Position numbers and translations under genes: made by a program
Part shown: one piece after another, positions 21,432-23,660 of the stretch
How positions within the stretch are numbered: position 1 is the first letter of the stretch
Layout: each line of letters begins with the position of its first letter
The notes under the pieces: generated by a model
What the model saw: the letters and a program-made list of their open reading frames with translations, nothing else
Database searches by the model: none
What the model was told of the DNA's origin: nothing
DNA from: Pseudomonadota bacterium
Lineage (GTDB): Bacteria; Pseudomonadota; Gammaproteobacteria; Steroidobacterales; JBCBZW01
Reading direction: 5' to 3'
NCBI GenBank assembly: GCA_039815145.1
Contig: JBCBZW010000049.1
Span: 1 to 33,870 of the forward strand
Length of the DNA: 33,870 bases

Positions 21432-21522
21432 TGGCGGAGAGGGTGGGATTCGAACCCACGATACGGGAGACCCGTATACCAGAATTCCAATCTGGCGCCT
21501 TCGACCACTCGGCCACCTCTCC
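21432..21522 (-). tRNA. tRNA-Ser (anticodon GGA)
   Basis: A complete 91-nt class II tRNA. The acceptor stem is GGAGAGG / CCTCTCC with discriminator G and an encoded CCA end. The anticodon arm CCAGA-TTGGAAT-TCTGG gives anticodon GGA, reading UCC/UCU serine codons. A long variable arm (ACGGG-TCT-CCCGT) is present, as expected for tRNA-Ser, and the T arm GTGGG-TTCGAAT-CCCAC is canonical. Confidence 0.97.
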
Positions 21523-21574
21523 GGGAGCACGCCAGTCTAGCGAAGTGCGACCGAAAGTCCAGCAACAGGGGCTA

Positions 21575-21733
21575 GTGTCCTGTCCCATAAATTCGTTGAA
21601 GAAGTCGCACGGGGCTTTTTGCTCCTAGGCGCGGCGCGAGGACGAGCGTGGCAGGCCCCACGGGAGGAGGAGCAACGTGCCTAGGGGCAAAAAGTACCCG
21701 CGAATTCTTCAACGAATTTATGGGACAGGACAC
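21575..21733. mobile_element. MITE-like inverted-repeat element flanked by TA within CTAG
   Basis: A 159-bp segment without coding capacity whose ends are inverted repeats of about 58 bp; the outer 31 bp (starting GTGTCCTGTCCCATAAATTC) are identical on the two arms and the inner part carries a few mismatches and one gap. A small central hairpin CGTGG-CAGGCC-CCACG sits between the arms. Both ends are bordered by TA in the context CTAG, the target preferred by IS630-type transposons, which duplicate TA. It has no transposase and would need one in trans. It lies between the tRNA-Ser gene and the 3' end of the lipoprotein gene; its hairpin could also act as a transcription stop. Confidence 0.8.
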
Positions 21734-21748
21734 TAGGAGTGTCCTCGC

Positions 21749-22564
21749 CTACTCCACGGCGATGACGCGCTCGGACACCACCTTCCAGCTTCGTCGCTCA
21801 CGCACCATCCACAACTCCTTGTCGATGGTGGATTGGATGCTCTCGAAGGCGAAGTACTGGCGGAAGCGCACGATCACATTGTCCCGATCCGGGGTCTGGT
21901 AGACCTCCAGCGACTCGAGATCGGTAAACGCCTGAGCGCCTTCGTTCATTCGTTGCTGGCGCACGTCTTCCCACTGCGCGCGGGTCATCGGCTGGGGCGG
22001 GATGAAGTCCTCGGAGTACGCGTCCAGGTAGCCCTGGAAGTTACGCTCCTCCCATGCGCGGGCCCATTCGCCCACGGCGTCGAAGACCTGGCGATACACG
22101 CGCCGATCCGAATCGATCGGTGCCCCCTGGGCGGGAGGTGGCGTCGGTGCCACGCGCGGGTTGGAGGCTTGACCGCCCGCAGCGGCGGCGGCCGCTGCCG
22201 CCTGCTCCGCGGCTTCTCGTTCGCGTTCGGCGGCCCGGCGAGCGCGCCTGGCCTCGGCGCTGTTATCGGCGATGCCCTCGATACGCGGCGGATAGGCCGT
22301 GCAGCGTGGATCCGCTTCGCGGTCCGAGCTGGCGATGGGCGGGATGTCGAAGCGACCGCTGTTGCGCGGCGGGTCGAGACCCTCGGGAATGCTCAGCTCC
22401 TTTCCGTCGAGGCGACCGGAGTATGCCGGGTCGGGCTCGCACACGGCCGCGCGTCCGCCGCACGCGCTCAGCGTGGCGATCACACAGAGGAGGGTAGCGG
22501 CGCCGAGCAAGCGCAAGCCTCGCGGGACCGATCGGCCCCCTTCAAAAGCGTCTATCGATGTCAT
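21749..22564 (-). CDS. Lipoprotein with BamC-like N-terminus and NTF2/SnoaL-like C-terminal domain
   Basis: A 271-residue lipoprotein. A signal sequence with lipobox LSAC gives lipidated Cys35. Residues about 36-90 resemble the extended N-terminal segment of BamC (LSIPEGLDPPRNSGRFDIPP), which in E. coli BamC wraps on BamD. An Arg/Glu/Ala-rich helix and a Pro-rich linker follow (residues 95-145). The C-terminus (about 150-271) has an NTF2/SnoaL-like pattern: VGEWARAWEERNFQGYLDAYSEDF, WEDVRQQRM, VIVRFRQYF and KELWMVRERRSWKVVSE. It lacks BamC's two helix-grip domains. ATG 22564 shares one base with the dapA stop (TGATG), so it is translationally coupled. The locus is where bamC stands in E. coli. 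Envelope function is inferred. Confidence 0.7.
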   Translation of the reverse strand: MTSIDAFEGGRSVPRGLRLLGAATLLCVIATLSACGGRAAVCEPDPAYSGRLDGKELSIPEGLDPPRNSGRFDIPPIASSDREADPRCTAYPPRIEGIADNSAEARRARRAAEREREAAEQAAAAAAAAGGQASNPRVAPTPPPAQGAPIDSDRRVYRQVFDAVGEWARAWEERNFQGYLDAYSEDFIPPQPMTRAQWEDVRQQRMNEGAQAFTDLESLEVYQTPDRDNVIVRFRQYFAFESIQSTIDKELWMVRERRSWKVVSERVIAVE

Positions 22565-23445
22565 CAATGCAGGCCAGCTGTCCTGAGCGCGTCGTCCACA
22601 AGCGCCTCGTGGGCGCCATCGAGCGGTGTCAACGGTAGACGCAGGGTCGCGCCGTCGATCACCCCGAGGCGCGCAAGCGCCCATTTCACCGCGATCGGAT
22701 TACTCTCAACGAACAGCGCGGCATGTAGTTTTCGTAGCCTATCGTCTATCTTGCGTGCTTCGGCCAGGTCGCCCTTGCGCCCCAACGCCACCATCTGCGC
22801 CATCGCGCCCGGCGCTACGTTACCGGTTACGGACACCGTGCCGTCGACGCCAGCTTCCAGCGCGTCGATCAGCGAGCCGTCGTCACCGCTCAGCACGGCA
22901 AAGTGCTTACCGCACAACTCGCGAAGCTCGTGCAGGCGCTGCATGTCGGGCACCGCCTCCTTCACCGCCACGATCCGCTCGTGCTGCGCCAGCGCGGCCA
23001 CCGTGCTCGGCTGCATGTCGCAGGCCGTGCGCGACGGCACGTTGTAGAGCACGACGGGTCCGGCAGCGGCGTCCGCGATCGCCTCGTAATGGCGCGCGAG
23101 GCCGCCCTGCGTCGGCTTGTTGTAGGAAGGGGTGACCACCATGGCCGCATCCGCGCCCGCCTCGAAAACGAGCCGCGTGAGGTCTGCGGCGCGCTGCGTG
23201 CTGTTGCTGCCACTGCCAGCGACCACCGCGACGCTCGACGGCAGGTGCTCCCGCGCTACGCGCACCAGCTCACCCAATTCCTCGACCGAGAGAGTGGCGG
23301 ACTCGCCGGTGGTCCCCCCGACCACCACACCATCCACGCCGCCGGCCCGCTGGTAGTCCAGCAAGCGCAGGAACGATGCGCGATCGACACGCCCGGCCCC
23401 ATCCATCGGACTCGCCAGCGCGACCATGGTCCCCACTGTGTTCAA
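22564..23445 (-). CDS. dapA: 4-hydroxy-tetrahydrodipicolinate synthase
   Basis: A 293-residue cytosolic aldolase-family enzyme condensing pyruvate and aspartate semialdehyde, the first step of the lysine and diaminopimelate branch. Seen are VGGTTGESATL, TPSYNKPTQGGL, Tyr134 in LYNVPSRT and the Schiff-base Lys162 in IVAVKEA, each one residue from E. coli DapA numbering (Tyr133, Lys161). The start is a TTG at 23445 with GAAGGA 6 nt upstream, giving the family length (E. coli 292); TTG 23475 would add ten residues without a ribosome site. It is divergent from gcvR and coupled to the downstream lipoprotein gene, as in the E. coli dapA-bamC locus. Confidence 0.93.
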   Translation of the reverse strand: MNTVGTMVALASPMDGAGRVDRASFLRLLDYQRAGGVDGVVVGGTTGESATLSVEELGELVRVAREHLPSSVAVVAGSGSNSTQRAADLTRLVFEAGADAAMVVTPSYNKPTQGGLARHYEAIADAAAGPVVLYNVPSRTACDMQPSTVAALAQHERIVAVKEAVPDMQRLHELRELCGKHFAVLSGDDGSLIDALEAGVDGTVSVTGNVAPGAMAQMVALGRKGDLAEARKIDDRLRKLHAALFVESNPIAVKWALARLGVIDGATLRLPLTPLDGAHEALVDDALRTAGLH

Positions 23446-23660
23446 GCGCAATCCTTCGGCCGGGTAAACCGACAATGGTAATGACCGCTCAAAGCCCTAG
23501 CAAGGCGCCGCGCCGGCAACGCCTGCTGCCCGAGGAAAAGCGGCACCGAGTTCCCCTCGACCACGGCTTCGACCGCCCTCCCCTGGGGTCGTTCCGAGGT
23601 GATTTGTAAGCTTATGTCGAGCCTGCCAGGACCGGCCTGGCGCCGCGCCTGGGCGGCGCC

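Follow-up and report, generated by a model that had tools for sequence, protein, structure and literature searches.

On the minus strand of the window, by which we mean the whole stretch of 33,870 nucleotides that was analysed, dapA is followed by the gene of a predicted lipoprotein that begins within the last codon of dapA (Table 1). Its ATG (22562–22564) shares base 22564 with the TGA stop codon of dapA, and its own stop codon, TAG, lies at 21749–21751. The open reading frame divergent from dapA is presumably gcvR, and on that assumption the gene order matches gcvR-dapA-bamC-purC of Escherichia coli. The coordinates and frame thus bear out the preliminary description of this DNA, which had placed the gene in the bamC position with a one-base overlap with dapA. 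From its lipobox (LSA-C35, with Gly at +2), the product is a lipoprotein with a predicted lipidated Cys35. The mature protein opens with the stretch Y48...L57.IP..L..PP......IP75, followed by C88..YPP, and carries two cysteines, Cys42 and Cys88, that are absent from the corresponding lasso of E. coli BamC. An Arg/Ala-rich helix and a Pro-containing linker come before the C-terminal domain, as had also been described. Among the 12 proteins of this fused type discussed below, the helix is seen by eye only in the window's genus, and the counterpart in G001, from the one other species of the genus that was searched, is 88% identical.

Table 1 Features of the lipoprotein gene, with positions in the window (A1, N-terminal profile described in the text)
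Feature	Position	Strand	Basis
Whole gene, encoding a 271-aa lipoprotein with lasso, linker and NTF2-like domain	21749..22564	-	Reading frame
Predicted lipoprotein signal peptide, residues 1–34, lipobox LSA-C, Gly at +2	22463..22564	-	Sequence
Predicted lipid-attachment Cys35	22460..22462	-	First A1 column, 23/23 rows (rows trimmed to start there)
BamC-type lasso region, residues 36–95	22280..22459	-	Profile comparisons with BamC; A1 match E 2.0e-15 (A1 includes the window row)
Lasso core aligned to BamC, residues 48–75	22340..22423	-	hhalign, 34 columns; PF06804 positions 7–34
Cys42, first extra conserved cysteine (candidate disulfide with Cys88)	22439..22441	-	23/23 A1 rows
Cys88, second extra conserved cysteine	22301..22303	-	23/23 A1 rows
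Arg/Glu/Ala-rich helix, residues 103–129	22178..22258	-	AF2 model, block pLDDT 78–91; alignment
Ala/Pro-rich linker, residues 130–153	22106..22177	-	Sequence; low pLDDT in 131–150
Csd6/Bd1075/Pgp2-type NTF2-like domain, residues 154–271	21752..22105	-	PF24125; AF2 model; Foldseek and PDB profile matches; pocket mapping
dapA, upstream partner gene	22564..23475	-	Stop codon overlaps lipoprotein ATG by one base

Downstream of the gene, a 165-bp palindromic MITE-like element (21572–21736) starts 12 bases past the lipoprotein stop codon, with 37-bp inverted ends that are 97% complementary. About 30 related places occur in the genome, 19 being longer than 120 bases, and the element has a very stable RNA fold (z −14); it may serve the dapA operon as a terminator or as the end of its mRNA. 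A tRNA-Ser(GGA) gene (21432–21522) also lies downstream on the same strand, and frames resembling the same tRNA follow the lasso gene, by eye, in several relatives.

The mature N-terminus shows its relation to BamC in profile comparisons. The Pfam model of BamC, PF06804, reaches its curated cut-off in none of the 39 genomes of the order, and in the window's genome it gave no match at E ≤ 0.001. At E ≤ 1, the same 39 genomes (the window's included) yielded 19 matches in 18 genomes, of which 17 fall on the window gene or its counterparts, all at profile positions 1–54, and two lie elsewhere. An hhalign comparison of 33 mature N-termini from the order with 28 BamC sequences, leaving out the lipid Cys, returned a probability of 86% (P = 5.1e-6, score 39.0, 34 columns), against a mean score of 9.8 and a maximum of 18.7 over 200 column permutations and a score of 11.4 for the reversed alignment. 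Because these BamC rows had been chosen with a lasso seed profile, the comparison was repeated with all 30 fetched BamC loci, which were chosen by their bodies, plus E. coli; the probability was then 81% (P = 1.2e-5, score 39.3, permuted maximum 15.2 over 200 permutations), and BamC bodies without the lasso scored 6.7. The permuted, reversed and body-only controls rule out a chance likeness.

Furthermore, a profile built from 23 N-termini of the order, with rows starting at the lipid Cys (A1), found five matches at E ≤ 10 among 177,635 PDB sequences, and all five are BamC chains. These matches are individually weak (E 0.17–0.73), and the strength of the result is its specificity, not any single E-value. 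This profile also picked up the BamC gene at 27 of the 30 BamC loci (E 1.1e-6 to 0.24). With the window protein as a single query, phmmer against the PDB gave nothing useful, and an NCBIfam search gave nothing above cut-off. Judged by these profiles, residues ~36–95 are a relative of the BamC lasso, beyond chance. The lasso of BamC is reported to contact BamD extensively in E. coli structures (PMC5056442), and in the single-chain AlphaFold2 (AF2) model of the window protein the region is disordered (residues 1–98). The two cysteines beside the lipid Cys are invariant in all 23 aligned rows of the order, which suggests a disulfide between Cys42 and Cys88 that would close the lasso.

What follows the lasso is different from BamC. 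Beyond the lasso, the window protein has no PF06804 match, and the AF2 model contains one NTF2-like domain and no helix-grip domain. Genes for BamB, BamD and BamE were found in the window's genome, that of BamD at G000:C17:43740-44351, and a full BamC was not found there, in a search that covered BamB to BamE.

The lasso gene is a regular companion of dapA throughout the order. Of the 34 genomes in which dapA was found (out of 39), 29 have the lasso gene directly after it on the same strand, the one in G003 being cut by a contig end. In three genomes (G005, G019 and G032) the lasso gene lies upstream of dapA; these belong to family f5, and there a fused gene stands upstream of a rather divergent dapA (36–40% identity). 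In G023 and G036 the fused lasso gene is away from dapA, on another contig. Searched over whole genomes, A1 gave matches at E ≤ 1e-12 in 33 of 39, weak matches only in G013, G026 and G031, and no match in G003, G014 and G038. Most of the 33 genomes with a strong match (21) encode a lasso-only protein of ~80–110 amino acids including the signal, which is the commoner form in the order; the lasso is joined to an added C-terminal domain in 12 of the 39 genomes (G000, G001, G004, G005, G008, G011, G018, G019, G023, G024, G032 and G036). An oddity confined to the window's genome is thereby ruled out. Since most lasso genes of the order come without the NTF2-like domain, this domain is dispensable to the role of the lasso itself. 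In G004, a second lasso-NTF2 protein (G004:C137:6550-7077) exists besides the one after dapA and is a paralogue of the fused form.

A similar picture extends to the rest of the class. BamC scores above the PF06804 cut-off in 172 of 276 genomes drawn from the class, and A1 matches at E ≤ 0.01, with up to 22 candidates scored per genome, occur in at least 115 of the 276, many of them on full BamC genes. Among 30 A1 loci fetched from outside the order, mostly chosen for a short frame or for failing PF06804 and so not a random sample, 26 lie directly after dapA on the same strand, and most are lasso-only; of the other four, three have no dapA in the stretch, and the match in L180 is probably due to chance. 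One locus, L179, encodes the lasso with a single PF06804 body part (42.6 bits, positions 201–322), and in other orders the locus downstream of dapA holds full BamC. With lasso-only, single-part and full forms found at such loci, the slot after dapA is one with a common lasso and varying bodies. Short lasso proteins after dapA were also seen in L175, L176 and L177 (from G048, G184 and G279, family f26), with a body of ~100 amino acids, possibly one helix grip; Pfam found only the lasso, and that in L175.

Several claims made from the letters of the gene can be weighed against these results. The likeness of the N-terminus to the BamC segment that contacts BamD is upheld by the hhalign comparisons, the PDB specificity and the sub-threshold PF06804 matches, and the loss of the BamC helix-grip domains agrees with the modelled fold and with the lack of any PF06804 body match. 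Relatives at the bamC locus, which had been proposed as a test, are present in 29 of the 34 genomes with dapA. The idea of a lineage-specific BamC replacement stands in so far as a gene with a BamC-like lasso occupies the bamC locus, and needs amending in that the gene is not a lone case: genes for the lasso alone are frequent in the order and turn up again elsewhere in the class.

The C-terminal domain can be assigned more closely than by fold. The window protein scores 54.4 bits, against a cut-off of 27, with PF24125, the 'Cds6 C-terminal NTF2-like domain' (a name that presumably refers to Csd6 of Helicobacter pylori), and the window's genome has no other PF24125 match at E ≤ 0.001. Eight other fused proteins were scanned with PF24125, of which five scored above the cut-off and those of G011, G018 and G023 below it, while G011 reached 27.1 bits, above the cut-off, in the genome search. 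AlphaFold2, run on an input of three sequences (the window protein and two stretches of the Noviherbaspirillum malthae locus L051), predicted an NTF2-like fold for residues 154–270 (block pLDDT 77–94; overall pTM 0.46). With this model, Foldseek against the PDB placed two chains of Bd1075 and one of Csd6 at ranks 1–3; Pgp2 came further down among general NTF2-like proteins (ranks 19, 20 and 25). A profile search of the PDB gave Bd1075 (E 7.2e-15), Csd6 (6.4e-7), the uncharacterised NTF2-like protein 3f7s (1.1e-4) and Pgp2 (0.0014); the position of 3f7s above Pgp2 counts against reading the domain as a peptidoglycan tether. In VIA-align, Csd6 (Z 15.1, rmsd 2.5, 121 residues) is tied with general NTF2-like chains, so the peptidoglycan-binding family cannot be told apart by fold alone. 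The sequence profile and the pocket residues do set it apart, and by these marks the domain belongs to the Csd6/Bd1075/Pgp2 NTF2-like family (PF24125). The earlier reading of a SnoaL/NTF2-like domain was therefore right about the NTF2-like fold, seen in both the AF2 model and PF24125, and too generic as to type, given the PF24125, Foldseek and PDB profile matches: the domain is of the Csd6/Bd1075 type, not plain SnoaL. Among Pfam matches of the window protein at E ≤ 10, there was neither a YkuD-type catalytic domain nor DUF3035.

The pocket of this domain is where its relatives are reported to meet the cell wall. In Pgp2, NMR and pull-down experiments have shown binding of peptidoglycan fragments at the NTF2 pocket; cells with substitutions at Y233, K257 or K307 had a curvature like that of the deletion strain, those at F242 and E324 intermediate curvature, and K307A bound sacculi weakly while Y233F still bound (PMC8038945). 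The catalytic domain of Pgp2 is described in the same paper as also binding peptidoglycan, which, like the binding retained by Y233F, counts against the tether reading. When the pocket residues were mapped from Pgp2 through the profile, W221, W225, Y233, Y237, F242, K257, K307 and E324 corresponded to W167, W171, Y179, Y183, F187, R202, K249 and E265 of the window protein, that is, seven of eight identical and all eight similar, with one K-to-R change. Over the whole alignment with Pgp2, 17 of 99 residues are identical (hypergeometric P for pocket enrichment 9.5e-6). Csd6 and Bd1075 have all eight residues, and 3f7s has four, both lysines missing. Across 11 aligned fused proteins (G001 left out), five to seven of the eight are identical; G018 is the weakest, with Ile at the K307 position, and G011 and G024 have Gln at the K257 position. 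Since these residues are conserved in the family as such, the result speaks for retention of the pocket, not for binding. The 'new C-terminal function' that had been suggested for the protein may, on this comparison, be peptidoglycan binding.

Phylogenetic analyses bear on how the fusion arose. In a tree of 26 PF24125-type domains, all 12 NTF2 domains of the fused proteins group together on a single branch (SH-aLRT 91), and the nearest to it is a TPR-like protein of Noviherbaspirillum. On a DapA and BamD tree of 34 genomes, on the other hand, the fused state needs at least five changes, two of them forced by well-supported branches; both trees were built quickly and have long branches. The likeliest history is a single early fusion followed by several losses, or some transfer, and repeated independent fusions are not favoured, given the single branch of all 12 fused domains. 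At L051 (4987–7625) in N. malthae, a TPR-like protein and an enzyme-like protein of YkuD-type look are adjacent, and both end in a Csd6-type NTF2-like domain. Pairs of PF24125 domains ~1.3 kb apart also occur in G005, G008, G014, G016, G027, G029 and G032.

On the basis of the gene order, the lasso homology, the absence of helix-grip domains, the domain family and the retained pocket, we infer that the window protein is a BamD-tethered, peptidoglycan-binding accessory lipoprotein of the BAM complex in BamC's place, a reading to which we assign a probability of roughly 58%. The lipoprotein, made from the dapA-coupled gene, would be exported and held in the outer membrane by a lipid on Cys35, and its extended segment (~42–95), possibly closed by Cys42 and Cys88, would run along BamD as the BamC lasso does. 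The helix and Pro linker would then place the Csd6/Pgp2-type NTF2-like domain at the cell-wall layer, where its aromatic and charged pocket would bind peptidoglycan. BAM would in this way be tethered to peptidoglycan, or its activity would follow wall maturation. With a different body, the protein would do BamC's job, in a role that the body of BamC may itself have in E. coli. In that species, such control of BAM by wall maturation has been connected with the binding of peptidoglycan by several BAM proteins, BamC included: BamC is reported to bind peptidoglycan in vitro and, like BamA, to cross-link to it in cells, BamB and BamE to bind it in vitro only, and mature peptidoglycan to suppress BAM activity (PMC9242858). 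Since BamA, BamB and BamE also bind, peptidoglycan binding is not peculiar to BamC. This speaks against the reading, as do the disorder of the lasso in the single-chain model, the many lasso-only genes of the order, the fused genes that lie upstream of dapA or away from it, the eroded pocket of some fused relatives, the tie of Csd6 with general NTF2-like chains and the pseudaminic acid binding proposed for Csd6. In Bd1075, a domain of this kind is reported to target the enzyme to a single side of the cell (PMC8938487), and positioning of BAM is hence an alternative to gating.

The lasso might instead bind BamD while the NTF2-like domain mediates contacts with other proteins (BamA POTRA domains, SurA or substrates) or oligomerisation, with no part for peptidoglycan. 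We regard this as unlikely, though it draws on the versatility of the NTF2 fold, for which VIA-align gives many functionally unrelated chains at Z 13–15, and on the reported contact of BamC helix-grip domains with POTRA domains (PMC13067283); the best sequence and profile relatives of the domain are nevertheless NTF2 domains of peptidoglycan-trimming enzymes, whose pocket residues it keeps where 3f7s keeps half of them. Decidedly less plausible is a small ligand or another envelope glycan, such as a nonulosonic acid, sensed beside BAM. Hydrophobic pockets are common in the NTF2 fold, and the NTF2 domain of Csd6 has been docked with pseudaminic acid and proposed to bind it (PMC4599014), but the NMR and pull-down work on Pgp2 located peptidoglycan binding at this very pocket (PMC8038945). 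That a Pro-rich lipoprotein segment came to resemble the lasso by convergence, in a gene standing after dapA by chance and unrelated to BAM, is highly improbable, for although the aligned core is short, the order has no match at the PF06804 cut-off and the PDB E-values are modest, the column-permuted, reversed and body-only controls fail, the PDB matches are exclusively BamC, nearly all sub-threshold PF06804 matches fall on this gene, and the same locus carries full BamC in other orders.

A wider view of BamC can be put forward tentatively. BamC may be a BamD-binding tether with exchangeable cargo, such that the slot after dapA across Gammaproteobacteria holds the same lasso with two, one or no helix-grip domains, or with a Csd6-type peptidoglycan-binding domain. 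In the window's lineage, a peptidoglycan reader would sit on BamD, letting wall state position or gate outer-membrane protein assembly, and wall reading might be common to the bodies of BamC. Genomes with the lasso alone, or with the lasso and a domain of peptidoglycan-binding type, show which part of BamC selection keeps, and the latter offer a concrete guess at the function of the remainder of a protein that a 2026 review singles out as the most mysterious of the BAM lipoproteins (PMC13067283). Should the fused domain read peptidoglycan, these genomes would be a natural experiment on the proposed control of outer-membrane protein assembly by wall maturation (PMC9242858). In the literature searched, which covered few subscription journals, neither a lasso-only BamC nor a fusion of the BamC lasso with an NTF2-like domain was described. 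A published survey is reported to have used whole-protein HMMs at E 1e-5 and so probably missed lasso-only forms (PMC3359395).

Among known systems, BamC (NlpB/DapX, PF06804) resembles the window protein in being an outer-membrane lipoprotein whose gene directly follows dapA and whose N-terminus carries the lasso Y...L.VP..L..P....IP, whereas the window protein has no helix-grip domain, two extra lasso cysteines and an NTF2-like domain, and stays below the PF06804 cut-off. The C-terminal domains of Csd6, Pgp2 and Bd1075 (PF24125) share its family, fold and pocket residues; these proteins, however, are L,D-carboxypeptidases, and the window protein has a lipid anchor and a BamC lasso in place of an enzyme domain. 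RmpM, whose peptidoglycan binding is OmpA-like, differs in having another fold and is not known to have a BamC lasso. Its likeness lies in being a putative peptidoglycan-binding component on the BAM complex, as reported for Neisseria meningitidis (PMC13067283). BamF of Alphaproteobacteria (DUF3035; Anwari et al. 2012) is described as a lipoprotein in which, as in the window protein, a BamC-like N-terminal motif is joined to an unrelated C-terminal domain, and as co-purifying with BAM and coming off under conditions similar to those that release BamD (PMC3359395). The window protein differs from it in lacking DUF3035 and in neighbouring dapA, not the signal peptidase II gene reported beside BamF in Caulobacter. 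BamF is thus a precedent for a BamC-like N-terminus with an unrelated domain in BAM. The window protein is neither BamC, having no helix-grip domain and falling below the cut-off, nor BamF, having no DUF3035, and it most likely works like both.
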